Positions 36,427 through 57,491 of a stretch of 64,000 nt of DNA are shown in pieces. Each line of letters opens with the position of its first letter. Position 1 is the stretch's first letter. A program made the translations under genes and the position numbers. The stretch comes from a virus. A model generated the notes under the pieces. The model was given only the letters and a program-made list of their open reading frames with translations, was not told the DNA's origin and did not search any database. The stretch is from positions 22,844-86,843 of the IMG/VR virus record IMGVR_UViG_3300023174_000118; one strand, 5' to 3'.

Positions 36427-36432
36427 TTTTAT

Positions 36433-36441
36433 ATTATAGCA
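36433..36441 (-). promoter_or_regulatory. Extended -10 promoter, leaderless start of a fibre operon
   Basis: TGC-TATAAT on the minus strand, six bases before the ATG of the collagen-like gene. No ribosome site is present. The 91-base gap in front of the gene holds no other gene. Confidence 0.7.
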
Positions 36442-36517
36442 TTATCGAGATTATAAGCCTTTTATATAAGACTAACTACAATGCCATTCCTTTCATTAAA
36501 ATTAATGGTAAAACTGA

Positions 36518-38745: not shown

Positions 38746-38751
38746 CTACTG

Positions 38752-38781
38752 ATTATATCTTATTCAGTAGGGTTTTGTAAA
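38752..38781 (-). promoter_or_regulatory. Promoter of the sugar-modifying trio
   Basis: -35 TTTACA (38781-38776), 18-bp spacer and -10 TATAAT (38757-38752) on the minus strand. The -10 ends six bases before the ATG at 38745, so the mRNA should be leaderless. It lies mostly in the 3' end of the 96-residue gene. Confidence 0.72.
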
Positions 38782-39050
38782 GACACCTGTGCAGCAAGTG
38801 CTGCAATTTCTTCTTGAGTTAATCCTGCTGCAATTAATTTATCATTTGCTGCTTGAGCTGGATCAATTTCAACAGGTTCTGGTTGTACAAATTTACCTGT
38901 TTCTTCATCATATGTCCAGCCAATTCCTGCTGGATTTTCAGATGTATATTCAATTAAAGTTGCATGTAAAACATTTGATGCATCTTCTACATCATCTGCA
39001 ACTATTACATTACTTACTGTGTTGCCACTCATTACTGCATATGTTCCCAT
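38760..39050 (-). CDS. Small fibre-associated protein
   Basis: 96 residues. MGTYAVMSGNTVSNVIVADDVEDASNV, then YTSENPAGIGWTYDEETGKF and an acidic helix EEIAALAAQVSLQ. This pattern (a strand with N-V-I-V-A-D and NPAGIGxxYD) is common in small phage proteins next to fibre genes, possibly fibre chaperones or tail-fibre tip pieces. It lies after the glycine-rich gene array. AAGGAG precedes the ATG. Confidence 0.75.
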   Translation of the reverse strand: MGTYAVMSGNTVSNVIVADDVEDASNVLHATLIEYTSENPAGIGWTYDEETGKFVQPEPVEIDPAQAANDKLIAAGLTQEEIAALAAQVSLQNPTE

Positions 39051-39059
39051 TTTATCTCC

Positions 39060-39920
39060 TTAGTAGTATAAATAAACAATTCCGTTTCCGCCAGTTCCTG
39101 ATGTGCCGTTAGCAGGACAAGCACCGCCTCCGCCACCGCCTGCGCCGCCGTTGCCTGCAGTTGTTCCTAAAGCATTAGATCCAACACCCGTAAAACCGCC
39201 TCCGCCGCCGCCTGCTCCAAAACCTGCTCCTGTGCCTGATGAACTAGTACCGCCTGCGCCGCCTCTTCCTGATCCTCCAGCGCCGCCAGTTCCTAATCCT
39301 GATGCTGTTAATGCGCCTCCACCGCCTCCGACAAGTCCTGAACCGCCTGCTCCAGCATTACCATTACCAATATTGCCACCACCGCCACCGCCTGAAGCAC
39401 CAGAACCACCTGCAATAGGTGTTGCGCCACTTGTTACTGCATTTCCACCTCCGCCTGCATAACTATTTCCACCATTACTGCCACCAGGTGCTCCTGTGTA
39501 AGAAGTGCCTCCACCTGTTGAGCCACCTGTTCCGCCTCCGCCTCCGCCTCCGCCAGTTCCTACTGATCCAATAGGTGTAATTGATCCTTGACCACCAGCA
39601 CCTCCGCCACCAATAACCATTCCATAAACACTTGGACTACCAGCATTAGAACCCACAGAAGCCGTACCACCTGCACCGCCAGTTCCAACAGTTACTGTGT
39701 TAGAAATATAAGTCCACCCAGCAGAATATCCTCCTGCGCCGCCGCCACCTGCTCCAGTGACTGCATATCCTCCACCGCCGCCGCCGCCAATGCAAATTGC
39801 ATAAACTCTATTAATTCCTGCGGGAATGGTAACAGGACCTGATATAGTAAAAGTTTGTTGCAACTTTAAACCATAAGGTGAGTCGCTAAACTTTGAATTT
39901 GAATATATATCTACGCTCAT
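39060..39920 (-). CDS. Glycine-rich adhesin-like protein, group B
   Basis: 286 residues; last of five in a row. Head MSVDIYSNSKFSDSPYGLKLQ is of the 'IYxNSxFxDSPYGLKLQ' type (group B). A conserved strand region VTIPAGINRVYAICIGGGGGGG leads into a long Gly-rich body with clusters GGGGGGGGT, ending GNGIVYLYY. Such bodies fold as polyglycine-II bundles in S16-type fibre tips. GGAG stands before the ATG. The protein has very few charged residues. Probably a fibre tip or host receptor binding part. Confidence 0.85.
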   Translation of the reverse strand: MSVDIYSNSKFSDSPYGLKLQQTFTISGPVTIPAGINRVYAICIGGGGGGGYAVTGAGGGGAGGYSAGWTYISNTVTVGTGGAGGTASVGSNAGSPSVYGMVIGGGGAGGQGSITPIGSVGTGGGGGGGGTGGSTGGGTSYTGAPGGSNGGNSYAGGGGNAVTSGATPIAGGSGASGGGGGGNIGNGNAGAGGSGLVGGGGGALTASGLGTGGAGGSGRGGAGGTSSSGTGAGFGAGGGGGGFTGVGSNALGTTAGNGGAGGGGGGACPANGTSGTGGNGIVYLYY

Positions 39921-39947
39921 GTTATCTCCATTTTATATCTTATTATA

Positions 39948-40868
39948 TCAGTAAAATAGGTAAAGTATACCTGCTCCACCTGATGAACCACCACCGCCGC
40001 CGCCTGCACCGCCGCCGCCAAGACCGCCAGTACCGCCAGAGGCACCTGATGCGTTAATACCATTGCCAGCGATTCCAGCACCGCCACCGCCTGCACCCAG
40101 TCCAATTCCTGATGTACCTGTGCCACCAGTAGTTATTGCCCCAGTTAAAATGTTTATTCCGTTACCACCGTTACCGCCTGTACGAATTCCCGTTGTTGAA
40201 GAAGCACGACCGCCACCGCCGCCTGCCAAACCTGACCCACCATTACCGCCTGTATTGGTTTGACTTCCTGGAAAATATGTTGAACCGCCTCCGCCTCCAG
40301 AGATTCCATCCCCACCATTACCCGCCGTTGCTACTGCGTTTGTTCCACCACCGCCACTACCACCACTACCGCTATTTATTATAGTCACTACGTTTGCTGT
40401 TACGGCTGCTCCACCAGGCATACCCCAATAATTTGTAGCGCCTGCTCCTGAATTAGCATCTGGTAATCCTCCTGATCCTCCACCGCCAAGAAATGCTCCG
40501 CCGCCTTGACCACCTCCGCCACCGCCTGCTATTATGTTTCCATATTGTGTGTATCCTCCGCTAGTCTGTGTTCCTCCACCTGAACCTACAACACAAGAAG
40601 AAACTGCAATAGTCCAACCCCAAGCAATTCCACCTGCTCCACCTGGCGAATTACCACTAGCTCCGCCGCCGCCGCCTGCTGCGATAGCATAAACAAATGT
40701 AATATTGGCGGGAATTGTAACAGATCCGCTAGATGTAATTACTTGTTGACATTTTAATCCATAAGGATTTACAAAAGATGTAAATGATGTAGGAGTATTA
40801 CTACTATTAGCAGTATGCCAATTAGACACTTGTGTGCCTGATTTATTTTTTCCAAATACATTTGTCAT
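39948..40868 (-). CDS. Glycine-rich adhesin-like protein, group A
   Basis: 306 residues. Group A head: MTNVFGKNKSGTQVSNWH (motif SGxQVSxW) followed by YGLKCQQVITSSGSVTIPANITFVYAIA. The body keeps AWGWTIAVSSCVVGSGG, YWGMPGG, GDGISGGGGG, GNGINILTG and ends GAGILYLFY. A Cys sits in the YGLKCQQ strand where the paralogues have Leu. A possible promoter box (TGA-TATAAT) for the next gene lies in the gap after it. Confidence 0.85.
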   Translation of the reverse strand: MTNVFGKNKSGTQVSNWHTANSSNTPTSFTSFVNPYGLKCQQVITSSGSVTIPANITFVYAIAAGGGGGASGNSPGGAGGIAWGWTIAVSSCVVGSGGGTQTSGGYTQYGNIIAGGGGGGQGGGAFLGGGGSGGLPDANSGAGATNYWGMPGGAAVTANVVTIINSGSGGSGGGGTNAVATAGNGGDGISGGGGGSTYFPGSQTNTGGNGGSGLAGGGGGRASSTTGIRTGGNGGNGINILTGAITTGGTGTSGIGLGAGGGGAGIAGNGINASGASGGTGGLGGGGAGGGGGGSSGGAGILYLFY

Positions 40869-40877
40869 ACATACTCC

Positions 40878-41798
40878 TTAATAATAAAGATAAAGAATTC
40901 CTGCTCCACCTGCTCCGCCAACAGTATTTCCACCACCACCTCCGCCGCCGCCTGCGCCGCCATTACCTCCAGTATAACCTACTCCATTTAAACCATTGCC
41001 AGCTGTGCCACAACCGCCGCCGCCAGAGCCAGCTACGCCAAACAATGAGCCTACTCCGCCTAATGCGGTTACACCTTTTTGAATATTAAAACCATTTCCT
41101 CCAAAACCACCTGGTCGAGTGGCCGTGCCTGCACCTGCACCGCCGCCTACTAAACCACTACCTCCGTTTTTACCATTATTACCTCCTGCGCCCCCGCCTG
41201 ATATGCCATCTCCGCCATTACCTAAACCTCCGCCGCCTCCTGCGCTACCTGCGCTACCATTTGGCGATGTCGTTATATTTCCATTAACGCCGCCAGGTAT
41301 TCCCCAATAATTAGTGCTACCTGAAGCACCATTTGCACCACCCTGACCACTGCTGCAGCCGCCACCGCCGCCGCCTAAAAAACCACCACCTGCACTATCA
41401 ATACCATTATATCCGCCTTGACCACCACCGCCAGAAATTATATTACCGTATTGCGTATAACCGCCACGACCAGGAGCAATTGAAGTAGATACCCCAGCAA
41501 TTCCGCCTGCAGCAACAATACAAGATGAGCTTGAAAGAGTCCAACCCCAAGCAACGCCGCCTGCACCACCGCCTGCACCACCATACCATCCGCCGCCGCC
41601 TCCTCCGCCTATGCAAATTGCATATACAAAAGTAATGTCGGCAGGAATTGTAACAGAACCAGTAGATGTAATTACCTGTTGAAGTTTTAACCCATAAGGA
41701 GTTATAAAAGATGTATTTATTGCTGGGGTATATGTATCATTTTGAGCCCATTGTGATACTTGAGAGCCTGATAATCCACGTTCAAATGAGTTAGCCAT
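40878..41798 (-). CDS. Glycine-rich adhesin-like protein, group A
   Basis: 306 residues. Head MANSFERGLSGSQVSQWAQ, then YGLKLQQVITSTGSVTIPADITFVYAICIGG. It carries the shared landmarks AWGWTLSSSSCIVAAGG, YWGIPGG, GDGISGGGAGG, GSGLVGGGAG, GNGFNIQKGV and the end GAGILYLYY. Close to the 39948 copy in length and landmark order but different in its loops, as expected for paralogues that differ in binding specificity. Confidence 0.85.
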   Translation of the reverse strand: MANSFERGLSGSQVSQWAQNDTYTPAINTSFITPYGLKLQQVITSTGSVTIPADITFVYAICIGGGGGGGWYGGAGGGAGGVAWGWTLSSSSCIVAAGGIAGVSTSIAPGRGGYTQYGNIISGGGGQGGYNGIDSAGGGFLGGGGGGCSSGQGGANGASGSTNYWGIPGGVNGNITTSPNGSAGSAGGGGGLGNGGDGISGGGAGGNNGKNGGSGLVGGGAGAGTATRPGGFGGNGFNIQKGVTALGGVGSLFGVAGSGGGGCGTAGNGLNGVGYTGGNGGAGGGGGGGGNTVGGAGGAGILYLYY

Positions 41799-41813
41799 TT
41801 ATACCCCTCCTTT

Positions 41814-42644
41814 TTAATAATATAGGTAAACAACACCGTTACCGCCTGAGCCAGCAGTACCACCAGTAGAGGCACCGCCTCCACCACCACCGCCTGAACC
41901 ACCATTACCGCCATTGTTAGCAGAAGCATTTGCGCCAGCGCCTGTGTAACCTGCTCCGCCACCACCACCGCCAAAACCTGTTCCTGTTCCTGATGAGCCA
42001 GTTCCACCAGCGTAGAAATCTCCAGTTCCACCAGCACCGCCTGTGCCTGTTCCTGCTGTTCCTGCTGCTCCACCGCCACCACAAATAAGTCCACGACCGC
42101 CAGCACCAGCAGTTTGAGTTCCTGTTGTAGTTGCTGAACCACCACCGCCGCCAGTATTTACACCTGCTGCACCAGCAGTACTGTTAGCACTCGGGCCACT
42201 TGCATAGCCAATTTGGCTTTGACCAGTATTTGGCGCACCTGTGTAAGAAATACTATTTGAGGAGGAAGCACCACCGCCGCCACCGCCTAATGTTGAATTT
42301 TGTCCACCTGTACCACCAGCAGCCATCACCATTCCATAAATTGATGAACCGCCGTTTGCACCAGCAGCCGCAGATGATGAACCAGTACCACCTGCGCCAA
42401 CAGTTACGGAAGTTGAAACATAAGTCCAGCCAGCAGAATATCCTCCTGCTCCACCACCACCACCACCGCCTGTAGCCTGTGTGCTTCCAGCACCACCACC
42501 ACCAATTACAATTGCATAAACTCTTTGAATACCAGCAGGAATATCTGTGATTGATGTTGTTCCTGTTGCGGTAATTGTGCGTTGCAGTTTGAGTCCATAA
42601 GGTGAATCGGTAAATTGTGAATTGCTATAAATTGATGCGCTCAT
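41814..42644 (-). CDS. Glycine-rich adhesin-like protein, group B
   Basis: 276 residues. Head MSASIYSNSQFTDSPYGLKL, close to the 39060 copy. Landmarks: IPAGIQRVYAIVIGGGGAG, GGYSAGWTYVSTSVTVGAGG, YTGAPNTGQSQIGYASG, GRGLICGGGGAAG and end GNGVVYLYY. The 'SAGWTYVS' and 'YTGAP' landmarks mark group B, in contrast to 'AWGWT' and 'YWGIPGG' of group A. It follows a group A gene by 15 bases. Confidence 0.85.
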   Translation of the reverse strand: MSASIYSNSQFTDSPYGLKLQRTITATGTTSITDIPAGIQRVYAIVIGGGGAGSTQATGGGGGGGAGGYSAGWTYVSTSVTVGAGGTGSSSAAAGANGGSSIYGMVMAAGGTGGQNSTLGGGGGGASSSNSISYTGAPNTGQSQIGYASGPSANSTAGAAGVNTGGGGGSATTTGTQTAGAGGRGLICGGGGAAGTAGTGTGGAGGTGDFYAGGTGSSGTGTGFGGGGGGAGYTGAGANASANNGGNGGSGGGGGGGASTGGTAGSGGNGVVYLYY

Positions 42645-42653
42645 AATTATCTC

Positions 42654-43553
42654 CTAGTAGAAAAGGTAAAGTATTCCTGCGCCGCCTGAGCCAGCAGTAC
42701 CACCAGTTCCAGCACCGCCTCCACCGCCACCGCCAAGACCGCCAGCACCACCATTATTTGCAGAAGCCGCAGTTCCATTACCTGCAATACCAGCACCGCC
42801 TCCACCTGCGCCGTTTGAGTTTGTTCCAGTAGTACCTGCTCCACCAGTTGTTTGTGCGCCAGTTAGGATATTTATTCCAGTACCACCTGAGCCACCTGTG
42901 CGAGTGTTTGAACTACTTTGTCCAGCAGCGCCACCGCCACCGACTAAACCTGAACCACCATTACCGCCCGTTGAGGTTCCAGTAGAAACTTGGCAAAAAG
43001 CGCCACCGCCTCCTGAAATTCCATTTCCCCCATTACCTCCTGCAACTCCAGCGGTAGTTGAAAAAAAACCTGAACCACCACCAGCACCATTTCCTCCATT
43101 GAGGTTGGTTCCACCTCCAGCACTACCACCTGGTATTCCCCAATAATTTGTTCCAGCACCGCCAGTACCACTTGCTCCAGCACCAAGAAATGAATTACCA
43201 CCACCACCGCCAGTAATAATGTTTCCATAGCGTGTATAATTACCACTACCTGATGAGCCACCAGCACCAACTATGCAAGTTGAGTTTGCTAAAGTCCAAC
43301 CCCAAGCAACTCCACCTGCTCCGCCACCATAACTGCTGCCACCACCGCCACCACCGCCAACTGCAATAGCGTAAACAAATGTAACTCCAGCAGGGATTGT
43401 TACTGATGTTGTTCCAGCGTTGATTGTCTGTTGTAAGCGCAATCCGTAAGGAAGAACAAAATGAGTATTAGATAAAGATGTTGATGCAGGAGAAGATGGG
43501 TGCCAATCGCTGACTTGTGAACTTACTTCGCCTCTAGGTAGATATTGATGCAT
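42654..43553 (-). CDS. Glycine-rich adhesin-like protein, group A
   Basis: 299 residues; first of the five-gene array. Head MHQYLPRGEVSSQVSDWHPSS, then YGLRLQQTINAGTTSVTIPAGVTFVYAIAVGG, so it has a small insertion before the strand. Landmarks AWGWTLANSTCIVGAGG, YWGIPGG, GNGISGGGG, GTGINILTGA and end GAGILYLFY. A GGGG-type ribosome site precedes the ATG. Confidence 0.85.
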   Translation of the reverse strand: MHQYLPRGEVSSQVSDWHPSSPASTSLSNTHFVLPYGLRLQQTINAGTTSVTIPAGVTFVYAIAVGGGGGGGSSYGGGAGGVAWGWTLANSTCIVGAGGSSGSGNYTRYGNIITGGGGGNSFLGAGASGTGGAGTNYWGIPGGSAGGGTNLNGGNGAGGGSGFFSTTAGVAGGNGGNGISGGGGAFCQVSTGTSTGGNGGSGLVGGGGAAGQSSSNTRTGGSGGTGINILTGAQTTGGAGTTGTNSNGAGGGGAGIAGNGTAASANNGGAGGLGGGGGGGAGTGGTAGSGGAGILYLFY

Positions 43554-43563
43554 ATTCTACCCC

Positions 43564-43926
43564 TTATGCTATACGATTTACGTAACCTGAAATTGTAACT
43601 ACGTTAGTTGTACCAGCATATGCATATACTGAAGTTGCTGCTGATCCAGTTCCCGTCAAAATTAATCCAGGGACAATAAGCGTCAGACCTGATTGTGAGG
43701 GGACCGTAATTTTAATATCATTATTTGGTGAAGTTGTTCCACCATATTGAATAGTTAAAAGCACAGCTGAAGAAGATGAGTTATAGGCATAAAGCCAGAC
43801 CTCATCAAGGACAGTTGCAGAAATTCCAGTTGCATGGATTGTTGTACCTGTAGAAGCTGTTGCCGCTACTAAAATCGGGGCTCCTAAAGAGCCGCCTGAG
43901 AGTTGCTGTTTGCTATAAGTTGCCAT
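43564..43926 (-). CDS. Small tail-associated beta protein
   Basis: 120 residues. MATYSKQQLSGGSLGAPILV, then WLYAYNSSSSAVLLTIQYGG and TVPSQSGLTLIVPGLIL: a compact beta-sandwich. It resembles the 101-residue protein at 31437-31742 in plan. It stands between a 724-residue fibre gene and the five-gene glycine-rich array and has its own promoter box and ribosome site (AAGGAG), so it may be made in larger amounts than the fibres. Confidence 0.72.
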   Translation of the reverse strand: MATYSKQQLSGGSLGAPILVAATASTGTTIHATGISATVLDEVWLYAYNSSSSAVLLTIQYGGTTSPNNDIKITVPSQSGLTLIVPGLILTGTGSAATSVYAYAGTTNVVTISGYVNRIA

Positions 43927-43949
43927 TTATATCTCCTTGTTATTTATAT

Positions 43950-43958
43950 AGTATACCA
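43950..43958 (-). promoter_or_regulatory. Extended -10 promoter before the five-gene adhesin array
   Basis: TGG-TATACT on the minus strand, ending 23 bases before the ATG at 43926, in the gap after the 724-residue fibre gene. The leader keeps the ribosome site AAGGAG. Confidence 0.6.
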
Positions 43959-43965
43959 TTATTTA

Positions 43966-46140
43966 TTAAAAAATCTGACCTGCTAGCAATAGTTGATCGC
44001 CATCGCCTTTTGTAAAATTACCTGCTATGTCTATTGCTGATAATACTGTACTTGACGAATTTTGCCATTGCATAAGATCGGCGGATTGAGAAGCTGCCCC
44101 TTGAACCATTAATCCAATTCTTGCAGCAGTTCCATTAACTACTTGTACTTGATAGGTGTTATTTAAACCATTTGAGCCAAATGAGGCGGGTGCTACTGAA
44201 TATAGATATCCAGCAGTACCTATTAACTGATTAGATACAAATGCTCCTACGTTATTTATATAGGCTCTAATATTTCCATTTTGATCTTGCCATTGTGTAA
44301 GATCGGCTGTTGGGGCTACTACTAATGATCCACCTGATGTATATGTATCAACAAGAGAGTTAGTTACTGTAAATTGGGTAGGTGACACTGTTGCAATTGT
44401 TGCAGAAGTTAAGTTAAATCCTGATCCTGATGTAGCTCCTGGGTTTCCAGACGAGACTACCCCAGTGATTGTAATTGATTGCCCAGCAACAAGGAATCCA
44501 GCAACATTTGTTGTATAGGTTATAGTTGTTCCATTTGCTATAGCAGCAGTAATTGATCCAGAGGTGTTTGTGGATTGAATTACTAATGGTAATCCATTTG
44601 CAGCCCTTGGTCTTATTCTAAGAACACCAGTATTTATTGTATTATTAGTATTTGAATTCATTGCTATATATGCGCCACTTGAGTTTGGATCCATTAATCC
44701 TAAACCATAATAGTTTCCATTACTAATTACATTTCCACCAAAAAATGAAGATCCAGTTGATGTAACATAAGCAAGTAGGCCTCCGCTATTATTTCTCCAC
44801 TCTTGGAGATTAGCAGTTTGAGTAGAGTTTGCTGTAATGGTAAGACCAATTATGTTTTGATTATTAGCAATAGCCATTGTATTAGTCCCGCCATAATTAC
44901 CTTGAACTAATAATCCACCAGATATTACTGTATTTCCAGTAAATGCTGCACCACCTGCTGAGGTTACTCTTGCAACAACAGAGCTATTACCATTTTGCCA
45001 TTGTTGAATATCCCCAGTAGTTGTTGCTGTTGCAACACCGCCAGATGTATAGGTATCTACTAAAGAATTTGTTATAGTAAATTGTGAGCCCGTTACAGAA
45101 GCAATAGTTGCACCTGTTAAGTTAAATCCAGTTCCAGCAGTGGCAGATAAATTTCCAGTAGATACTACACCAGTAATTGTTACTCCCATTCCAGCATAAA
45201 TAAAATTTGGATCACTGCTTGTTGTATATGTTATTGTTGTACCATTTGCTGTGGCAGCAGTAATTGTAAAAACAGTAAATGATGATCTTACAGTTAGAGC
45301 TTGTTGATTTGCTCCAAGTGCTCTTATTAACATTCCACTTGAATTAAAAAGATTTGATGTATTTGATACAGGAACTATTTGTGCACCAGTTAAAGCAGCA
45401 TCTTGAATACGATTAGGCCATAATGCAGTTAATTGAAGATTTCCTGCGTTATCCATTCTAGCTAAGTTTGTACCACTTGAATTTTGCCATTCAGTAAGAC
45501 TATAAGATTGAGATGCATGTCCTCTTATAGACAATGGTACTTGATAAGGAGTAGGTGATGTTATAGATACTACTGAGTGGGGTCTTGTCTGTCCTAGCGT
45601 AGTAGCAACTCCTCCAGGAATAAATGTTCCAGCGGAATTATATACTGTATATGTGTATATATTTCCACTTCCGCTAACAGATTGAACTATAAAAGTTCCA
45701 TTAAAATATGATGGCAACATATTAACAACTGTTATGTATGAACCTGAAGCTACAAATTGAAAATTTATATTTAAAGTATATGTTGCAATAGTTGAAGATA
45801 ATGCAGTTGCTGAAATAATTGCAATTGAATGTGAATAAAATGAATTTGCAACACTAGAAGATCCAAAATACATATGTCCTGCTGCATTTATTCCAGATGC
45901 GGGTGTACCTAATAAATTTTGATTTTGTATTAAATCAGAAGTTTGTTGATTATTAGGTTTTGTAGTTAATGCAATAGAGGTTCCAATTGCTGGAGATATA
46001 ACTTCTGCTTTAGAATTAACTGTAGTTGTATTTAGTGTAGTTGTATTTATAGTATTAGTTACGTTTAATACATCGTCAACATTTAACTGAGATACCTTAG
46101 AAGGATCTTGATATGTATACTTTAATTTATCTAAAGCCAT
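43966..46140 (-). CDS. Modular tail fibre protein
   Basis: 724 residues. Head MALDKLKYTYQDPSKVSQLN, then a helical stalk (NVTNTINTTTLNTTTVNSK). The body alternates copies of the shared beta module (TTITYTTNVAGFLVAGQSITITGVV ... QFTVTNSLVDTYTSGG, twice, plus a diverged copy near 115-175) with the short motif S-Q-[ST]-x-[DN]-L-x-[EQ]-W-[QR]-[DN]-x-x-G, which appears at least four times. This is the plan of long, flexible phage side fibres. Two near-identical module copies lie in one gene, so recombination inside it is possible. Confidence 0.8.
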   Translation of the reverse strand: MALDKLKYTYQDPSKVSQLNVDDVLNVTNTINTTTLNTTTVNSKAEVISPAIGTSIALTTKPNNQQTSDLIQNQNLLGTPASGINAAGHMYFGSSSVANSFYSHSIAIISATALSSTIATYTLNINFQFVASGSYITVVNMLPSYFNGTFIVQSVSGSGNIYTYTVYNSAGTFIPGGVATTLGQTRPHSVVSITSPTPYQVPLSIRGHASQSYSLTEWQNSSGTNLARMDNAGNLQLTALWPNRIQDAALTGAQIVPVSNTSNLFNSSGMLIRALGANQQALTVRSSFTVFTITAATANGTTITYTTSSDPNFIYAGMGVTITGVVSTGNLSATAGTGFNLTGATIASVTGSQFTITNSLVDTYTSGGVATATTTGDIQQWQNGNSSVVARVTSAGGAAFTGNTVISGGLLVQGNYGGTNTMAIANNQNIIGLTITANSTQTANLQEWRNNSGGLLAYVTSTGSSFFGGNVISNGNYYGLGLMDPNSSGAYIAMNSNTNNTINTGVLRIRPRAANGLPLVIQSTNTSGSITAAIANGTTITYTTNVAGFLVAGQSITITGVVSSGNPGATSGSGFNLTSATIATVSPTQFTVTNSLVDTYTSGGSLVVAPTADLTQWQDQNGNIRAYINNVGAFVSNQLIGTAGYLYSVAPASFGSNGLNNTYQVQVVNGTAARIGLMVQGAASQSADLMQWQNSSSTVLSAIDIAGNFTKGDGDQLLLAGQIF

Positions 46141-46162
46141 TTAGACCTCCTCCCGCCTTTTA

Positions 46163-49100
46163 TTAAGCTTGAGCTTCAGTCCAACCTAGTCGTCCGAACA
46201 CTGTAGCTGATGCTGAACCTAGATTACGAATAACAATTGTCATTGTATCTGGCCCATCTGGATAAATGTTAGCATTAGAGTTTGCAGAACCTCCACCAAG
46301 AACAGAGTTACCCAGATCACGAACTGATGTTAAATCAAGTCTATCTGTAACGCCTCCAGTAAAGAATCCACCTGCAACTTCACCACCAGTTATTGTAGTT
46401 GAACCAGCAGCATATGAAACAATTTGTGCAAGAGATGAATTTTGTGCTCCAGAATCTCCAACAGCATTTGTCCATGCAGTTGTTGATGAGGGGGTTCCAT
46501 TAAGTACTAATGTAACAAGAAGAGGTTGTGCTGTTCCAGTTTGAGTTAATCCAAATGAATCTAACTTAAGCTGCATTCTATTAATAATTTCACGGTTTCC
46601 AAATAAACCAACTTGTCCATTATCTACAGAAGGACCTACACGAATTCCAAGTAGTGCAATTGATGATCCTGCTGCAACTGTAGTTGCAGAAGTTGTTCCG
46701 TAAGTAAAGATCAAAGATTTATCGTCATCAAATCTTCCATCCATAATTGCTGCTGTACCCCAGTGAGATATAGAAGGTGCAAATGTTGGATAAGCTAATT
46801 CTACAGATGTTGGAGCAGTTGCAGAATATGTAAATGTTTGAGCCGTTGATCCCAAAGGAGCAAATATCAAAGTTGGGTTAGCGGCTGTTAACGCTTCATT
46901 TAATGTAATTGTTGTTCCAGAAATTCCAGTTACAAATGTTCCATCTGGCACTGGGCTTGGAGTAGTTGAAGAATAAACACGTTGTCCAAGTTGAATTCCT
47001 GTTGCAGATGTAACTGTTCCAGAAACAGATCCTGAAGTCCATGTAGTAGCTGTTCCAGCAACTGCTGATCCTGCTTGTCCACGAGTTAGACCAGTAAATG
47101 TAGTTAATGTTTTTCCAGTGTAATTAATACCTTCATAAACTGAACTATTTCTAACAATTAATGTTCCAGTTGAAGGAAATAACGATGTGTCATTTACTGT
47201 AATAGATGTATCACCTGAGTTTAATGTTGCTGTTGTAAATGATATTGGAGACTCTGTAGTTGCTTCATAACGAGCAACAAGGTTTCCTGAACGCATATAT
47301 GCTTCAGAGTTAACGTTGTTATTTGGCATTCTGTGGCAATAAATAATATTTCCATCAGTTCCTCTAATTCCCCAACGGATTGTTCCTGCTCCATACCATG
47401 AATAATCAATATAAAACATTTGCATTGTTGCTAGGTTTAAGTTATACCCTGAAGGGCCAGTTCCATCTAATTTATCAATATTGAATGCTGACTGTGCAAC
47501 TTTTGTTTCAACCATTTTTGTAACAGTTCCAAAAGTTACGTTTGAAGCACCACGATATGATGGATTAATTGTCATTGATGTATCAGAAGCAATATTAATT
47601 ACTTTATAAGATTGACCACGAAGAGCGATAAAATCTCCAATTTTTAATTGCTTAGAAAATGATGTTGGGAATTCAGCATCAGTTTGTGTAACTGTAGACG
47701 AACCAGCATTTACAGAAACTCTTCCGCCAATTTGTAATGTTGATGATCTACGAACTGCATACAGTGTTGATCCATCATATTCCCAAAAAACACCATTTTG
47801 ATTATCAAATGCTCCAAGTCTATTTTTTGCACCTGACCAACTTGCCACTGAAACTGCAGGATCTCCAGAAGCTGGGGTTGCAGTAGGAGCTGTTAATGCA
47901 GTATAAGTAAATGTATTGTATCTTGGTGCTGCCACAACAGTAAATGTTCCATTATATGCTGTTTCTGTTGCGCCAGTAACAACAACTGTTGCACCTGGTT
48001 GAATATTATGTGCTTCACGTGTACGAACTGTAACTGTAGTTCCAGATGAAGTTAACTGATCGATTGTTGCATATGGTCTTAAAAGAGTTCCAGATGATAT
48101 CTGTAAGCCTTTACCAGATTGGTAGCGGAATTGTCTACGTGTTTGTCTTGTTGAAGATACATTTGCCGATGCGCTATTTGAGCCAAACAATACTCCGCCA
48201 TCAAATGGTCTGTGAACATATTGTGATGTTGGTCTTACATAAATAGTTGCTGATGTTGCAGTTAAAGATGCTGGGTTTCCAATTGTTGGATTTGCAAAGT
48301 ATGCAAATACTGTTGGTGAAATTATGCTTGCAACTGTAAAATTTCCATTAGGAGGATTTGTTCCAGTAATTCCAACTACAGCAATTTCATTTCCTGGCAT
48401 TAATCCATGAGGAATAGTTGTTGTTACTTGTACTCTAAGATCTGTACCAGATACTGATAGCGTTGGTGCTGCTCCAATTGCTGATTGAGAATACAATGTT
48501 CCTGGAGTTATAATTGTTTTAGAAGCATCATATAAAGCTGTAATGGTTGTGTAGTTGGTAGCTCTTGCAGTATATGTAAAGTTAGTTCCTGCAGATACGG
48601 TCTCTACAATAAAGTTTCCGTTAGCAAACAATAAGTTTGTATCACGAACAAATATTGGAGTTCCTACTGCTGGTGGAGTTGTTGTTGCAACTGTTACAAT
48701 TCTTGCATTTGCAGCCATTGTAATAGCAGTTATGTTTAATAGTGGGACTTGGTTTTCAAAAGCCCATGGACGATTATTTGTAAGAGATACGTTTTCCCAT
48801 TTAGTTGTTTGTTGTCCATATTCAAAGTCTGTATCAATTAAAGATTGTGGCTGAGATACACGAAATTTACCTACTGGATCAGTAAATGTTTCAGAAGGAG
48901 AAAACTTCTCATCATATTCATCAATAGTTATTTGTAGCGTATCTGTGGCAGACATTGCTGTAGTATTAAAATTAAGAACAATTGTTGTAGTTCCAACTGC
49001 TGTTGCTGGAGTTAGTGTATATGATGTAGCTCTTAAACTAGGGTCAGAAAAATTATAGATTACTTGATTTGTTGTTGTATTGGTAATTAATGCTAGGCGT

Positions 49101-49186
49101 TCACGTCTAATGATTCTTGGAATTGTTATTGTTCGTGTAGCTGGAACAAATGTATATCCTGTTTCAAGTAAAATTTTTCTTGCCAT
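46163..49186 (-). CDS. Large modular tail fibre/appendage protein
   Basis: 1007 residues. Residues 1-130 are a beta domain (MARKILLETGYTFVPATRTI). Then come several modules of the type VTTTIPHGLMPGNEIAVVGITG or VRTREAHNIQPGATVVVTGA ... YNGTFTVV, a small SH3-like barrel (FCCH-like) common in phage tail proteins. A domain around 590-640 (YNLNLATMQMFYIDYSWYGAGTIRWG) looks like a jelly roll, and the C-terminal third is a beta domain with many Thr and Ser. Probably a fibre or baseplate arm. The stop lies 22 bases before the next gene. Confidence 0.8.
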   Translation of the reverse strand: MARKILLETGYTFVPATRTITIPRIIRRERLALITNTTTNQVIYNFSDPSLRATSYTLTPATAVGTTTIVLNFNTTAMSATDTLQITIDEYDEKFSPSETFTDPVGKFRVSQPQSLIDTDFEYGQQTTKWENVSLTNNRPWAFENQVPLLNITAITMAANARIVTVATTTPPAVGTPIFVRDTNLLFANGNFIVETVSAGTNFTYTARATNYTTITALYDASKTIITPGTLYSQSAIGAAPTLSVSGTDLRVQVTTTIPHGLMPGNEIAVVGITGTNPPNGNFTVASIISPTVFAYFANPTIGNPASLTATSATIYVRPTSQYVHRPFDGGVLFGSNSASANVSSTRQTRRQFRYQSGKGLQISSGTLLRPYATIDQLTSSGTTVTVRTREAHNIQPGATVVVTGATETAYNGTFTVVAAPRYNTFTYTALTAPTATPASGDPAVSVASWSGAKNRLGAFDNQNGVFWEYDGSTLYAVRRSSTLQIGGRVSVNAGSSTVTQTDAEFPTSFSKQLKIGDFIALRGQSYKVINIASDTSMTINPSYRGASNVTFGTVTKMVETKVAQSAFNIDKLDGTGPSGYNLNLATMQMFYIDYSWYGAGTIRWGIRGTDGNIIYCHRMPNNNVNSEAYMRSGNLVARYEATTESPISFTTATLNSGDTSITVNDTSLFPSTGTLIVRNSSVYEGINYTGKTLTTFTGLTRGQAGSAVAGTATTWTSGSVSGTVTSATGIQLGQRVYSSTTPSPVPDGTFVTGISGTTITLNEALTAANPTLIFAPLGSTAQTFTYSATAPTSVELAYPTFAPSISHWGTAAIMDGRFDDDKSLIFTYGTTSATTVAAGSSIALLGIRVGPSVDNGQVGLFGNREIINRMQLKLDSFGLTQTGTAQPLLVTLVLNGTPSSTTAWTNAVGDSGAQNSSLAQIVSYAAGSTTITGGEVAGGFFTGGVTDRLDLTSVRDLGNSVLGGGSANSNANIYPDGPDTMTIVIRNLGSASATVFGRLGWTEAQA

Positions 49187-49187
49187 A

Positions 49188-50936
49188 TTAGTACGCTCCT
49201 AGTAATATATCCATTGCTTTAAATGGATAAGAATATGTTGTAGTAGATGTTGCAAATCCTGCTTGAATCCTGCCAACAAAAGTAGTTCCTATTGGCGGAA
49301 CTTCAGAAAAAGACATATATCCATCTGAATCTAGTATAAATCCATCATAGCTGAAAGGGGTTCCCCAAACATATTCTGGTAGACTTACACTTTGAATTAT
49401 ACCATTAAGGGTTACTAAAAGCCTAAATGGGTTTGATATTGTTTGCTTTAAGCCTTGCCAGGTAAGCAAAAATCTATTTTCAATACCGTCAAATTGATAT
49501 GTTAAATTATCTATTGGCACTATGTCTAATTGTAGGTTAGGTGCTGTTATATTTCCCGCATAATCAACTTTAGCTAAAGTGTTGTTATTGCTATCCCACC
49601 ATTGTTGTAAGTCTGCAGTATTCCCTGCTCCAGATGGGTATACTATTAGCGATGGAGTTAATAAAGAAGAAGAACGAATTCTAATTGATGATCCTAATCC
49701 ACCATATGGACGTATAATTCCATTTGCACCATCTGATTGTATTACAACACCATTATTATGTAAAAATCCAAATCCGCCAGCGGTTGGTGCCAAAAATGAC
49801 GGTGCTGAAACCTGATAATTTGAAACCACTGAATTAGATGCAACTTTAAGTATTTGAGTTGCTGATGAATCTTGAACTTGAAATATATCTCCACCAGTTG
49901 TTGTTGATGCAGTTCCACCAGATGTGTAGGTATCTGATAAAGCATTTGTAACTGTAAATTGAGTTGCACTTGCTGATAAAACTATTGCACCTGATAAGTT
50001 AAATCCAGATCCTGCAGTCGCTGAAGTATTTCCAGTTGAAACAATTCCTGTAATTGTAACTGTTTCTCCAGCAAGAAATGTATTAGTTGCTGTATAAGTA
50101 ATTATTCCACCACTTGTTGTAGCTGCAGTAATTGTTGCAGTTTTTACAGCAGTTTGTTTTACTACAACAGGCCCAGATGTATCTTTTGGTTGAATTTGTC
50201 CAGATGAATTAATTCTTAATTGTATTGCACCTGTTGAGCTTTGCCATTGCATTAAATCTGAAGTTTGTGAAGATGCACCTTTAAATATAGATGTTGCAGA
50301 TGTTGTGCCAATGGGGGAGTCTACTATTAATGAATTACTATCTGATGCTGGCTGTATATACAATCTACCATTTGATGTAAATGTAGATCCACCACGGAAA
50401 TTTATAGATCCCGCAGGACCAACATACATCATTGTTGTTCCTGAAGCATTTTGCCATTCTGTCAAATTACCATTTGGAATAACTGTGGCGGTACCGCCAG
50501 AAACATAAGATGTTGTAGTAGCAGTAACTGTTATTGTAAATTGGTCACTAAATGCTGTTGCTATAGTTCCAGAAATATTATATGTTGTTGGGGAAATACC
50601 TGATATTGATACTGTTTGACCCGCCGAAAATGTATTTGTTGCTGTATATGTAATTGAAGATCCATTATTTACAGCATTTGTAATTGTGGCTGTTAATGTT
50701 GGTCCAGACTTGATAATTAAACCTTTACTACCAACATCTGGGATTGTAATAGTTTGTGGGACTGCGGTAAAATTATTAGCAGCATTTAATAAAGCGGCAT
50801 TAGAAGATGTTGATCCAATTGGACCTTGTATACCTACTGCTCCTTGAATACCAGAAATTCCCTGTATACCTTGTGCACCAAATGTTGCATTTAGCCATTG
50901 TAGGGAACCTGTATCATAATATTTTAATGTAGAAAT
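49188..50936 (-). CDS. Collagen-like modular fibre protein with ATT start
   Basis: The frame is open for 582 codons. There is no ATG, GTG or TTG before an internal TTG at 50465, but just after the in-frame TAA at 50937-50939 an ATT codon follows a strong ribosome site (AGGGGGTGA). The N-terminus would read (M)STLKYYDTGSLQWLNA, a typical fibre start, then GAQGIQGISGIQGAVGIQG collagen triplets (18 onward), two beta modules (one with PTTYNISGTI, one ending DTYTSGG) and WQxSxG motifs. One base change would turn ATT into ATG. Translation from TTG 50465 would remove the collagen stalk and is less likely. Confidence 0.78.
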   Translation of the reverse strand: MSTLKYYDTGSLQWLNATFGAQGIQGISGIQGAVGIQGPIGSTSSNAALLNAANNFTAVPQTITIPDVGSKGLIIKSGPTLTATITNAVNNGSSITYTATNTFSAGQTVSISGISPTTYNISGTIATAFSDQFTITVTATTTSYVSGGTATVIPNGNLTEWQNASGTTMMYVGPAGSINFRGGSTFTSNGRLYIQPASDSNSLIVDSPIGTTSATSIFKGASSQTSDLMQWQSSTGAIQLRINSSGQIQPKDTSGPVVVKQTAVKTATITAATTSGGIITYTATNTFLAGETVTITGIVSTGNTSATAGSGFNLSGAIVLSASATQFTVTNALSDTYTSGGTASTTTGGDIFQVQDSSATQILKVASNSVVSNYQVSAPSFLAPTAGGFGFLHNNGVVIQSDGANGIIRPYGGLGSSIRIRSSSLLTPSLIVYPSGAGNTADLQQWWDSNNNTLAKVDYAGNITAPNLQLDIVPIDNLTYQFDGIENRFLLTWQGLKQTISNPFRLLVTLNGIIQSVSLPEYVWGTPFSYDGFILDSDGYMSFSEVPPIGTTFVGRIQAGFATSTTTYSYPFKAMDILLGAY

Positions 50937-50996
50937 TTATTTCACCCCCTGATGTATTTATTATATCACTTTATTAGTTTATTTAAGAATAAACAA

Positions 50997-52352
50997 TTAG
51001 TAATATAAAAATATTACTCCGTCTCCGCCTTTACCTGAAAATGCACCATTAGAAGATGCACCACCGCCGCCTCCACCAAGTCCGCCATTACCGCCAGCAT
51101 TTCCTACACCATTTTCTCCATTTGCAAGATAGCCTGCGCCGCCTCCGCCTCCGCCAAATAAAATTCCTGTTCCTGTTGATCCAGATCCACCAACAAATCT
51201 ATCACTATTACCTCCAAGCCCTGTTCCTGAAGTTACAACTCCAGTTGTACAGGCTGATCCTGCTCCGCCACCAATAGCGCCCCTACCACCGTTGGGAATG
51301 AAATATGCGCCAGTTGCTGGTATTGCTGCTCCGCCGCCGCTTCCAGAAACTCCATCAAAACCACCAGTACTTCCCGTTGCGCCTCCTGCGCCATAACCAA
51401 TTACATTATTTGATGCAGAAGGTGCTCCAGTATAAGAAGCTCCACTTGAACCACCTCCAATAGTTGCTGTTCCGCCGCCACCTGCTCCACCAATTCCTGC
51501 TCCAGGTGACGGAGAAAAACCAGCATTTCTTCCGCCTTCTCCTCCACCAGCTAAAACTTGTCCATAAATAGTTTGTTGTCCAGAGTTTGATGATGTATAA
51601 GAACCAGTACATGCTATAGATGCACCTCCACTGCCTACTATTGCTGTATCTGAAACAAATGCCCAACCAGCAGATATGCCTCCTGCTCCGCCACCGCCGC
51701 CGCCACCACCATTATATGCAGTTCCGCCAGAACCAGTTCCTGTTATAGCATTTGTAAATGAAAATTGTGTTGAAGAAGCTGCTGTAACTGTTGCATATGC
51801 ATTATTAAGAGAAGCTCCAGATATTTGAGTAATTCCAGAAACATTTACAGTATCTCCAATAACAAAATTATTGTTGGCTATATATACTGCATTTACACCA
51901 TTTCCATATGCAGAAGTTATTGTAGTTGAAGTGCTTAATCTACCTGCTCCACCTGCTCCTCCGCCGCCAATACATACTGCATAAACTCTTTTGACATTTG
52001 AAGGAATTACAACAGATCCACTAGTTACACTACCTCCAGAAGTATATGTATTTGATGAAGCTAAAGTATTTAAAATAGTAAATGATGTACTTGTAACAGA
52101 ATAAATTGTTGCATTATTTATATTAAATCCTATATTTGCAGTTGCTGATAAATTATTATTTGATACAATGCCTGTAATAGAAACAATTTGTCCTGCTCTA
52201 TAAAAATTTGGACAACCATAGGTTATATATGAACCATTTGCTACAGCACTAACAATTGAGTAGGTTGCTTTAGTTTCATATATTGTTTGTCTAAGTTTTA
52301 ATCCATATGGGGTTTCACTATATTGTGAATTTTCATAAAATGTATTTGTCAT
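50997..52352 (-). CDS. Glycine-rich adhesin-like protein with inserted modules, group B
   Basis: 451 residues, the longest of the nine. Head MTNTFYENSQYSETPYGLKL is group B. Two foreign modules interrupt the scaffold: one after the QTIYETKA strand (about 28-115, containing GQIVSITGIVSNNNLSATA), and a second after VVIPSNVKRVYAVCIGGGGAGG (about 140-210, with TVNVSGITQI). Then the Gly body resumes with GGISAGWAFVSDTAIVGSGG and YTGAPS, and ends GDGVIFLYY. The modules are the ones found in long fibres here, so this gene shows recombination between the two families. Confidence 0.83.
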   Translation of the reverse strand: MTNTFYENSQYSETPYGLKLRQTIYETKATYSIVSAVANGSYITYGCPNFYRAGQIVSITGIVSNNNLSATANIGFNINNATIYSVTSTSFTILNTLASSNTYTSGGSVTSGSVVIPSNVKRVYAVCIGGGGAGGAGRLSTSTTITSAYGNGVNAVYIANNNFVIGDTVNVSGITQISGASLNNAYATVTAASSTQFSFTNAITGTGSGGTAYNGGGGGGGGAGGISAGWAFVSDTAIVGSGGASIACTGSYTSSNSGQQTIYGQVLAGGGEGGRNAGFSPSPGAGIGGAGGGGTATIGGGSSGASYTGAPSASNNVIGYGAGGATGSTGGFDGVSGSGGGAAIPATGAYFIPNGGRGAIGGGAGSACTTGVVTSGTGLGGNSDRFVGGSGSTGTGILFGGGGGGAGYLANGENGVGNAGGNGGLGGGGGGASSNGAFSGKGGDGVIFLYY

Positions 52353-52355
52353 ATA

Positions 52356-53165
52356 TTAATAGTATAGCAAGACTAAGCCATTGCCCCCACTTCCGCCAGT
52401 TCCATTTGGTGAAGTTCCTCCACCGCCGCCTCCGCCTGCGCCTCCGTTACCACCTGCGCCAGCTGTTCCATTTGAGCCAGGTCCTGCATAACCTGCACCT
52501 CCGCCGCCGCTACCTGGTGCAGACCCACCAGTTCCGCCAGTGTATAAATCACCAGTTCCACCGTTTGCTCCAAAACCAGTTACAGATCCACCTCCGCCGC
52601 CACATATAAGTCCTCTACCTGCAGAATAAGTATTATTAAAATTACTTACTCCTCCACCTGCTCCAGTTGTTACCCCATCACCACCGTTTCCAAAAGCAAA
52701 TCCACCTCCAGAGGCATAGCTAATTCCTGAAGCTCCTACACCTGGTGCACCAGTATATGATGTTGTTGAGCTATTACTTGACCCTGTTGTTGCTCCACCT
52801 GATCCACCAGAGCTTCCATTATTGAGAGATCCAGCGCCTCCTCCTGCAAAAACCATTCCATAAATTGATCCTGTTCCTGAAGCACCAGTTACTGGGCTTG
52901 AATTTCCAACTCCACCTGCGCCTACTGTTACAATATTAGATGCATAAGTCCATCCCATAGAAAAACCACCTGCGCCGCCGCCACCTGTACCAGTTGTTGA
53001 TGAACTACCAGCTGCACCGCCGCCGCCAATAACTATTGCCCATACTCTTTTTATTCCTGGCGGAATTGTTACAGAAAAAGTTCCTGGAGTAGAAAAAGTT
53101 TGTTGAAGCTTTAATCCGTACGGTCCATCCGTAAAGTTTGCTTGATTATATATTGTTGTTATCAT
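52356..53165 (-). CDS. Glycine-rich adhesin-like protein, group B
   Basis: 269 residues, the shortest of the nine. Head MITTIYNQANFTDGPYGLKL; landmarks TIPPGIKRVWAIVIGGGGAAG, GGFSMGWTYASNIVTVGAGG, YTGAPGVGASGISYASGG, GRGLICGGGGG, end GNGLVLLYY. Only three bases separate it from each neighbour, so it must be made from the same mRNA. The last codons double as the promoter box for the next gene. Confidence 0.85.
   Translation of the reverse strand: MITTIYNQANFTDGPYGLKLQQTFSTPGTFSVTIPPGIKRVWAIVIGGGGAAGSSSTTGTGGGGAGGFSMGWTYASNIVTVGAGGVGNSSPVTGASGTGSIYGMVFAGGGAGSLNNGSSGGSGGATTGSSNSSTTSYTGAPGVGASGISYASGGGFAFGNGGDGVTTGAGGGVSNFNNTYSAGRGLICGGGGGSVTGFGANGGTGDLYTGGTGGSAPGSGGGGAGYAGPGSNGTAGAGGNGGAGGGGGGGTSPNGTGGSGGNGLVLLYY
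52361..52369 (-). promoter_or_regulatory. Extended -10 promoter, nearly leaderless
   Basis: TGC-TATACT on the minus strand inside the 3' end of the preceding adhesin gene, eight bases before the ATG at 52352. The predicted leader is one or two bases and no ribosome site is present. Confidence 0.45.
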
Positions 53166-53168
53166 AGT

Positions 53169-54056
53169 TTAATAATATAGGTAAAGTATTCCTGCTCCAC
53201 CCACCCCTCCTGAAGCTCCTCCACCTGCTGCTCCGCCTCCAAGACCGCCTGTTCCACCATTCATTCCAGAACCATTTGTTCCGTTGCCTGCAGTTCCTGC
53301 GCCACCTCCGCCAGATCCACCGTTGTTACCAGTATTAATTCCGCCTAAACCTCCATATGTTTTTTGTCCAGTACTTATATTAATACCGTTTCCACCATTA
53401 CCGCCAATGGCTAAATTAGCAGTATTGCGTGAACAACCTCCGCCTCCACCTGCTAAACCTGAACCACCATTACCAGCAATAGCGGTTCCTGCAACTACTG
53501 TATTTGGTCCTCCACCTCCTCCAGAAATTCCATCACCGCCTTCACCTGCTGGAACTGAAGCGGAACCTGAAGTTCCTCCACCACCAGCACCAGATCCTAA
53601 ATTACCTTTTAATGCATTAAGTCCTCCAGTTCCACCAGGCATACCCCAATAATTAGTTGCTCCAGAATATCCTCCACCTCCTGCACCGCCAAGCAAATTT
53701 CCCGCTATATTACTTCCTCCACCTGCCAGTATATTTCCGTAACGTGTATAGCCGCCCGAACCATTTACTGAACCACCAGCGCCAATAACACAATATGGCA
53801 CTTTAACAGACCAACCCCAAGTAATTCCGCCTGCGCCTCCTCCACCGCCATTGCCTGAACCTCCACCGCCTCCAACTGCAATAGCATATACAAAATTAAT
53901 TCCTGCGGGAATTGTAACAGAGCCTGTTGATGTAATAACTTGTTGTAATTTTAAGCCATAAGGAGTAATTGAAGACACAAATGAAGCAGCTGATTGTGAT
54001 GATCCAAAATCAGATACTTGTCCTCCAGACTGTCCTCTTTTAATTGGATTAGCCAT
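53169..54056 (-). CDS. Glycine-rich adhesin-like protein, group A
   Basis: 295 residues. Head MANPIKRGQSGGQVSDFGSS, then YGLKLQQVITSTGSVTIPAGINFVYAIAVGG, almost identical to the 40878 copy over this strand region although the genes are 13 kb apart. Landmarks TWGWSVKVPYCVIGAGG, YWGMPGG, GDGISGGGGG, GNGINISTGQ and end GAGILYLYY. AGGAG stands before the ATG. Confidence 0.85.
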   Translation of the reverse strand: MANPIKRGQSGGQVSDFGSSQSAASFVSSITPYGLKLQQVITSTGSVTIPAGINFVYAIAVGGGGGSGNGGGGGAGGITWGWSVKVPYCVIGAGGSVNGSGGYTRYGNILAGGGSNIAGNLLGGAGGGGYSGATNYWGMPGGTGGLNALKGNLGSGAGGGGTSGSASVPAGEGGDGISGGGGGPNTVVAGTAIAGNGGSGLAGGGGGCSRNTANLAIGGNGGNGINISTGQKTYGGLGGINTGNNGGSGGGGAGTAGNGTNGSGMNGGTGGLGGGAAGGGASGGVGGAGILYLYY

Positions 54057-54067
54057 TTGTTACCTCC

Positions 54068-54931
54068 TTAGTAATATAAATAAATAATACCATTTCCGCC
54101 AGATCCAGTTGTTCCGCCGCCGCCGTTTGCTCCACCACCGCCGCCGCCTAAGCCGCCGTTGCCACCATTAATTCCAGAAGCATTAAAACCATTACCTGAT
54201 ATCCCACCACCGCCGCCGCCACCTGCGCCGCCGTTAGGAACAGTAGCGCCTATTCCACCAGTTGTTATTTGTCCAGTAATAATATTAAATCCATCACCGC
54301 CGTTGCCACCAATGCGAGTACCAGTTGTTCCGCTTGCGCCGCCTCCGCCGCCACCTGCTAAACCGTTACCGCCGTTGCCTGCTGTGTTAGTTTGAGTGCC
54401 ACTTGCTCCTGCATATCCACCACCGCCACCTGAAATTGAGTTTACGCCATTACTTCCTGAAATAACACTACCACCGAAGGCGCCATTTCCTCCTGCTACT
54501 GGCGTTCCCCAATAATTTGTTGAGCCAGCATATGTTGAGTTATTTGTTGAACCACCTCCTGCCGAACCTAAAACTCCACCGCTATTTACTCCAGCGCCGC
54601 CGCCTGCAATTATGTATCCATAACGAGTATATCCGCCGCCTCCGTTACCTGTTCCTCCTGCTCCAACTATACAAGAAGGTGCTGGTAGAGTCCAACCCCA
54701 AGCAATTCCGCCTGCCCCTGCTAGATTAGCACCACCTGCTCCTGCCAATACAACATAAACCCATGTAATGTTTGCTGGAATAGTTACTGATCCTGTTGAT
54801 AAAATTGTTTGCTGTAATTTAAGTCCATATGGAGATGCCATAGAACTTTGAGAATAATTTAAAAATCTTTCATTTGATGGAAACCAGTTAGATACTTGAC
54901 CTACTTGCTTTTTATTAATTGGATTTGTCAT
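54068..54931 (-). CDS. Glycine-rich adhesin-like protein, group A
   Basis: 287 residues; first of the upstream set of four. Head MTNPINKKQVGQVSNWFPSN; YGLKLQQTILSTGSVTIPANITWVYVVLAG. Here the first Gly cluster after the strand is short (GAGGANLAGAGG) compared with its paralogues. Landmarks AWGWTLPAPSCIVGAGG, YWGTPVAGG, GDGFNIITGQ, end GNGIIYLYY. The ATG overlaps the TAA of the collagen-like gene upstream (TAATG), a direct translational link between a collagen stalk and a glycine-rich tip. Confidence 0.86.
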   Translation of the reverse strand: MTNPINKKQVGQVSNWFPSNERFLNYSQSSMASPYGLKLQQTILSTGSVTIPANITWVYVVLAGAGGANLAGAGGIAWGWTLPAPSCIVGAGGTGNGGGGYTRYGYIIAGGGAGVNSGGVLGSAGGGSTNNSTYAGSTNYWGTPVAGGNGAFGGSVISGSNGVNSISGGGGGYAGASGTQTNTAGNGGNGLAGGGGGGASGTTGTRIGGNGGDGFNIITGQITTGGIGATVPNGGAGGGGGGGISGNGFNASGINGGNGGLGGGGGGANGGGGTTGSGGNGIIYLYY

Positions 54932-55296
54932 TAGCTAAACACCTGTGTAGATATTACTATTTGATCTGCACTAGTATCTAGTGATATAGTACGGTTGTTT
55001 GTTAAGTCCCCGCCTCCTAACAATGGTGTTGATGTGTTAATTGTTAAAGAAGATGGCGGGACGCCTAAAGTATTTGAAGTTGTATCAATCCATAATGTTT
55101 CTATAGAGGCGGGAGTAGAACTAGAAGCAACAATTCCTTGAGAACCTTTTATGCCCTGTATACCTTGAGTTCCCTGTAAACCTTGTATAGGATTAGTTAT
55201 AACAGCTTTCCAAGATGATCCCGTCCATATCCATGTTTTGCCGTCAAAAGAATAGGTGTCATTTGTTGCTGGACTATTTGGAAAATTAATTGGCAT
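54931..55296 (-). CDS. Short collagen-like fibre protein
   Basis: 121 residues. Head MPINFPNSPATNDTYSFDG ... WIWTGSSWKAV matches the first 35 residues of the long fibre at 31776-33683. Then seven or eight Gly-X-Y triplets (GLQGTQGIQGIKGSQG), and a short C-terminal beta part with DLTNNRTISLDTSADQIVI. It has an anchor and a stalk but no large tip; the glycine-rich protein encoded next, overlapping by one base, could supply it. The last residues (VISTQVFS) resemble the end of the neighbouring 134-residue protein. Confidence 0.78.
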   Translation of the reverse strand: MPINFPNSPATNDTYSFDGKTWIWTGSSWKAVITNPIQGLQGTQGIQGIKGSQGIVASSSTPASIETLWIDTTSNTLGVPPSSLTINTSTPLLGGGDLTNNRTISLDTSADQIVISTQVFS

Positions 55297-55306
55297 CTTC
55301 TATTCC

Positions 55307-55711: not shown

Positions 55712-55729
55712 TATTCTCCAATTTTAAAA

Positions 55730-55755
55730 GGGGGAGAAGTTATGTTTTCTCCCCC
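55730..55755 (-). terminator. Hairpin terminator within the fibre cassette
   Basis: A 9-bp stem GGGGGAGAA/TTCTCCCCC with an 8-nt loop, followed by TTTTAAAA on the minus strand. It separates the 567-residue fibre gene from the short collagen-like genes and the glycine-rich array. Confidence 0.8.
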
Positions 55756-55775
55756 TCTAATTATACTATTTAATA

Positions 55776-57479: not shown

Positions 57480-57491
57480 TTCTATTCTCCT

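Follow-up and report, generated by a model that had tools for sequence, protein, structure and literature searches.

Phage tails often contain glycine-rich domains, which are hard to align and mostly carry no annotation. Polyglycine domains of mycobacteriophage Bxb1 were described in association with the central fibre, and in mycobacteriophage Mysterious two minor tail proteins with consecutive numbers, gp31 and gp32, were both predicted to be polyglycine-rich and were unresolved in that structure (PMC13252515). The gp24 protein of cyanophage Pam3 has a TNF-like core, a distal glycine-rich lattice and a hypervariable tip; it acts as a homotrimer and was found in virions, and the authors assigned receptor recognition to the distal glycine-rich tip (PMC9608196). 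The gp38 protein of Salmonella phage S16 has a beta-helix core, with one adhesin per fibre (PMC6851490). Here we analyzed nine glycine-rich genes, arranged in two arrays, on a stretch of 64,000 nucleotides (the window) that comprises bases 22844-86843 of the 86,843-base viral record IMGVR_UViG_3300023174_000118, which stems from an uncultured phage. These genes are of two types, A and B, which on viral contigs were obligate neighbours in a fixed order.

Two gene types in a fixed order

All nine open reading frames (ORFs) were intact, were located on the minus strand where a preliminary description of this DNA had placed nine homologous genes, and encoded proteins of 269-451 aa. We refer to the genes by their first coordinate in the window. 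Glycine made up 33-41% of eight of the products and 26% of the 50997 product. The homology reaches beyond the glycines, since a dozen other positions were invariant in all nine proteins (P15, Y16, L18, I34, P35, V41, W72, Y102, Y137, P141, L267 and Y269 in the numbering of 52356). The motif PYGLKLQQ, which had been described as common to all members, varied. A profile built on the nine genes found relatives on other contigs with E-values as low as 1e-79. Proline-rich ORFs on the plus strand over the arrays were rejected as genes, as they are antisense to glycine codons.

The proposed division into two groups was upheld. Type A comprises 39948, 40878, 42654, 53169 and 54068, and type B comprises 39060, 41814, 50997 and 52356. 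When models built separately on the A and the B genes of the window were applied to 231 genes of other contigs, the two types were separated by 32 bits or more in every case (median 180). The landmark motifs of the two groups were looser than described, with TWGWS in 53169, YWGTPVAGG in 54068, and GWAFVS and FYENSQYSETPYGLKLR in 50997.

Array 1 has the order ABAAB and is composed of an A gene (42654..43553, 299 aa), a B gene (41814..42644, 276 aa), two further A genes (40878..41798 and 39948..40868, 306 aa each) and a B gene (39060..39920, 286 aa) that has the invariant positions common to all nine. Array 2 has the order AABB. Its two A genes (54068..54931, 287 aa, and 53169..54056, 295 aa) are followed by B genes of 269 aa (52356..53165) and 451 aa (50997..52352), the latter with two insertions. 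The spacing inside the arrays was 3-27 bp, which is operon-like, and a Shine-Dalgarno-like site was present in 7/9 genes.

Two scans of viral contigs, the second of which was seeded with A, yielded 96 distinct A/B runs. All 62 runs that were clear of contig ends fitted the pattern (A+B+)n, with A first and B last: 37 were AB, 11 AAB, 7 AABB, 2 ABAB, 2 ABB, and ABAAB, ABBB and AAABB occurred once each. Over all runs we counted 88 AB, 29 AA, 15 BB and 3 BA transitions, and the three BA transitions were junctions of two complete units. In the search seeded with A, an A gene without B was found only where the contig ended. The order ABAAB was also present at locus L043, and, like the window, L033, L078 and L233 each have AABB as a second array. 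A/B units were also present in G035 and G036, two other relatives of the window phage. By tblastn no A/B genes were found in cultured phages, which is a weak negative due to low-complexity masking; a profile search of eight named cultured-phage records also found none, and no relatives were found in bacterial genome contigs. On one contig of 94,728 bases the A/B array was divided between the two ends (L271 and L288), which suggests that this genome is circular or permuted and was opened within the array.

Slots and loops of the arrays

One possibility for several tandem paralogues with hypervariable loops is a store from which a single alternative specificity at a time is expressed or brought into use by recombination. 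We calculated trees for 101 A genes and 80 B genes. Slots 1, 3 and 4 of array 1 grouped with the same slots of L043, the genes in slots 3 and 4 as direct sisters, and the slot 1 group also took in L233. For nine complete AAB runs the distance between genes of the same slot in different phages was 0.76, versus 0.97 for different slots, a value reached by 2 of 256 exact permutations. The slots look old, because genes of the same slot in different phages are usually closer to each other than to their neighbours in one genome. A few runs (L274 and L285) harbored recent A duplicates, so that slot conservation is a tendency and not absolute.

No two of the nine genes shared an exact match longer than 26 bp. 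The 26-bp match is part of a stretch of 86 bp with 84% identity at the 3' ends of 42654 and 41814, which is the sole sign of local exchange. Sequence sharing between adjoining A and B genes was absent across 59 pairs, which speaks against general conversion between them. Apart from the 86-bp stretch, recent tandem duplication and gene conversion were rejected. None of the nine genes was a pseudogene. The mostly conserved slots, the near absence of sharing between genes, the lack of pseudogenes and the Shine-Dalgarno-like sites in 7/9 genes favor several tip types over a store of specificities, two options that the preliminary description had left side by side; we consider a store very improbable. 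At another locus (L051:6431-7363) an A gene was interrupted by a single in-frame TGA, while the remaining members of that array were intact.

Type A changes faster than type B (mean distance 1.00 versus 0.78). A comparison of the loops across related phages, which had been proposed as a check, revealed that the loops between the conserved glycine blocks are almost all distinct. In most A loops 82-86 of 88 sequences were distinct, in most long B loops 40-65 of 66, and loop length varied in both types. The head of the B proteins was conserved across the B sequences.

Predicted folds and a proposed paired tip

The curated cut-off of the Pfam family Gly_rich_2 (PF21722, 24.3 bits) was passed by 41814 (28.3 bits) and 52356 (37.1 bits), and the other seven products scored below it. 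At E ≤ 0.01 the family matched 59 of 66 B and 25 of 88 A sequences. By sequence similarity both types can be assigned to Gly_rich_2, type A more weakly; it is included because it is homologous to B by sequence, despite its weaker own matches.

AlphaFold2 models were built from the 88 A and 66 B sequences. The predicted local distance difference test (pLDDT) score was 89 for both types (42654 for A and 41814 for B), and the predicted template modelling (pTM) score was 0.84 for A and 0.87 for B. Both models contained a packed glycine-rich lattice. About 30 residues at the N-terminus of A and about 15 at that of B were unstructured; the B model had no helix and the A model a single helix of three residues. 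In Foldseek searches against the PDB, chain Q of the Bxb1 tail tip came first for both types, with E=3e-6 and a probability of 1.0 for B, and with E=2.6e-3 and a probability of 0.95 for A, which is marginal by E-value. The next protein was Pam3 gp24 (B: E=2e-4, probability 1.0; A: E=2.4e-2, probability 0.93), followed by the glycine-rich domains of ALK/LTK with chance-level scores. Among predicted viral structures, B matched many phage proteins that bear the name glycine-rich domain-containing. When compared directly with PHROGs, the A and B genes matched tail families or families of unknown function (phrog_863, phrog_356). The models indicate that A and B share the overall fold of tip proteins with a TNF-like and a glycine-rich part, clearly for B and marginally for A, and the nine products are likely glycine-bundle adhesins. 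The earlier view of glycine-rich adhesins in two groups is thus supported by the Pfam assignment, the matching folds and the hypervariable loops.

Both arrays are preceded by a candidate anchor. Array 1 is headed by the gene for a 120-aa protein (43564..43926, minus strand; phrog_30535, E=3.7e-32), and of the 86 runs that have an ORF upstream, 80 had a homologue of this protein immediately before the first A gene. Three exceptions were the second arrays of L033, L078 and L233, which follow collagen-like fibre genes ending DQGVISGQVFS. Similar to these, array 2 is directly preceded by the gene for a short collagen-like fibre protein ending DQIVISTQVFS (54931..55296, minus strand), next to that for another collagen-like fibre protein, which ends DQAVISMQVFR and has tail-fibre PHROG matches (55307..55711, minus strand). 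From its position, the 120-aa protein is probably an anchor or adaptor of the A-B unit. Its homologues in Pseudanabaena phage PA-SR01 and EBPR podovirus 3 had no adjoining A/B genes.

We give an about even chance to the reading that A and B are complementary subunits of a Gly_rich_2 receptor-binding tip, present on at least two fibre types. The two proteins are taken as parts of one assembly because the pair is obligate, ordered, non-converting and accompanied by a fixed small partner, and two fibre types are assumed because the 120-aa protein and the collagen-like fibre would provide two different anchors. Each protein would consist of a short N-terminal head, a beta core and a packed glycine-rich lattice with hypervariable connecting loops, which would contact the host. 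The head may act as a docking peptide, since that of B is conserved yet unstructured in the model of B alone. A and B would co-assemble at one fibre tip, with A as the faster-changing and more specificity-bearing half. The first cassette would comprise the 120-aa protein, A B A A B and a 96-aa protein, and would be anchored through the 120-aa protein; the second, A A B B, would be anchored on the collagen-like fibre. A further-reaching version, in which A and B form an obligate hetero-oligomeric glycine-lattice tip (e.g., mixed trimers) and phages with AAB or AABB build combinatorial multi-receptor tips on two fibre types of one virion, is conceivable but doubtful.

Several points weigh against complementary subunits at one tip. 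Contact between A and B and their position on the virion are deduced from the genes and from models of single proteins. The Foldseek TM-scores were low (about 0.3-0.5), and therefore the fold match is one of topology and not of close superposition. Once the background given by the small protein was taken into account, co-variation of A and B was weak (partial r 0.21, reached in 51 of 2000 permutations). Gene stoichiometry is not one to one, as AAB and ABB runs exist. Finally, the proteins could sit on the head, because the island that harbors the arrays is located upstream of the portal gene and away from the tail genes.

The weak co-variation would also fit with each gene encoding a homo-oligomeric adhesin that occupies a separate fibre, adjacency being due to co-transcription and joint transfer of the cassette. 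Pam3 gp24 is homotrimeric (PMC9608196), and the fibre island is mosaic among relatives. Joint transfer, however, predicts neither the fixed position of A before B nor the complete lack of partner loss over 62 internal runs from divergent phages, and ORFs of 861 and 878 aa in the relative G001 have two glycine-rich regions in each chain. We consider separate tips rather unlikely.

The location of the arrays bears on the possibility that the proteins are head fibres or capsid decorations sticking to cells or particles, and not tail adhesins. Both arrays are part of a variable fibre island of about 30 kb (28047..57953, minus strand) between the genes for ribonucleotide reductase and portal, as defined by gene-by-gene comparison with 11 contigs. 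The island is found upstream of the portal and capsid genes; the tail-tip genes, at 2-12 kb, are far away. Three neighbours of the arrays (55776, 46163 and 33683) have matches to PHROGs with a head and packaging label. In Streptomyces phage Angela the minor tail genes follow the tape measure gene, and nothing resembling the island is found there. On the other hand, the direct PHROG matches of A and B are to tail or unknown families, the solved structural relatives are a tail-tip (Bxb1) and a tail-fibre protein (Pam3), and in our judgement PHROG labels on structural proteins of the cyanophage type are loose. A function on the head is unlikely.

The fibre island and known tip proteins

Over its full length, the terminase of the window phage is 61-65% identical to those of Streptomyces phages, Francob among them, and the start of its tape measure protein is about 35% identical to that of phages such as Angela. 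The order glycosyltransferase, ribonucleotide reductase, portal, protease, capsid and tape measure, with other genes between reductase and portal, also matches Angela, which has only an endolysin gene and two further genes in that interval and no such island. In the 11 contigs compared, both flanks of the island were conserved and its content was swapped among relatives. The profile of the nine genes had no match in 31 contigs (25-97 kb) collected via the tape measure. Other Gly_rich_2 proteins were present in 5 of 13 tape-measure relatives tested. G001 lacks A/B genes; about nine other matches to Gly_rich_2 were counted in its island, where they lie upstream of the tape measure. On this contig (L314, G001:C1:10000-29999) several glycine-rich fibre genes alternate with genes for proteins of about 130-330 aa that start with MANKDFKVKN or similar. 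Multi-copy glycine-rich proteins are a recurrent trait of these islands, since in relatives the corresponding island holds either A/B genes, 2-7 in number, or different Gly_rich_2 proteins. The claim that nine copies are far above expectation therefore holds only in part, although nine was the maximum seen among A/B carriers.

Within the island, array 1 is closed by the gene for the 96-aa protein (38760..39050, minus strand). Homologues of it were found directly after the last B gene in most of the 20 A/B loci having one, usually 4 nt apart. The protein had no PDB or cultured-phage match and may be a fibre-assembly helper; identification as a known assembly chaperone was rejected, as PDB matches (protein G) were at chance level only. 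Beside array 1 (36518-38745) we found genes for a 336-aa protein, a TPR protein and an FkbM methyltransferase, which may function in fibre glycosylation. A homologue of the 336-aa protein is annotated as beta-mannosyltransferase in Synechococcus phage DSL-LC02, and this protein and the TPR protein were found again on A/B contigs and, at L316, next to other glycine-rich fibres.

The insertions in 50997 contain a module of about 75 aa with the pattern GQxVTITG...FTVTN...YTSGG. The first (aa 33-110) is a clear copy (E=4e-37) and the second (aa 145-212) a weak match (E=0.018). The module is also present in the genes 6625-7710, 31776-33683, 43966-46140 (two copies) and 49188-50465. Scattered in this way over fibre genes that are otherwise unrelated, and over the adhesin gene 50997, it appears to be an in-frame domain that roams. 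Module-like stretches also occurred within homologues of the 120-aa protein (L012, L020, L033, L051, L078 and L274).

The glycine-rich family was already known, and the A-B pairing rule adds knowledge that was beyond the reach of the preliminary description. The strict two-gene grammar, together with slot-specific lineages, makes functional adhesin units of uncultured phages recognisable and leads to the directly testable prediction of a hetero-oligomeric polyglycine tip. The multiplicity of A/B proteins arises as paired units in exchangeable fibre islands and not as loose copies.

The nine proteins had been called S16-type adhesins. They share with S16 gp38 glycine-rich motifs split by hypervariable loops, and gp38 adjoins a fibre gene, as array 2 does. 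However, the helical N-terminal attachment domain of gp38 with its conserved tryptophans is absent from the A and B models, and gp38 (6F45) was not among the 27 and 14 PDB matches at E ≤ 10, with no separate check that the library includes 6F45. Membership in the S16 type was rejected because of the missing attachment domain and the lack of a listed fold match. Pam3 gp24, in contrast, is encoded by one gene, forms a homotrimer and has its own helical baseplate-docking domain, whereas two gene types with a short head are present here. The best solved match to both models was Bxb1 chain Q (PDB 9d93), which by its length and composition appears to be Bxb1 gp33. Bxb1 gp33 itself belongs to PF21722 (E=1.2e-11), and its closing strand GGDGYVLIEWE resembles GGNGVVYLYY of the window proteins. 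Unlike in Bxb1, A and B each have small genes of their own, which form paired arrays and lie outside the tail module. For such a pair, gp31 and gp32 of Mysterious are a possible precedent by analogy, leaving aside homology to A and B.

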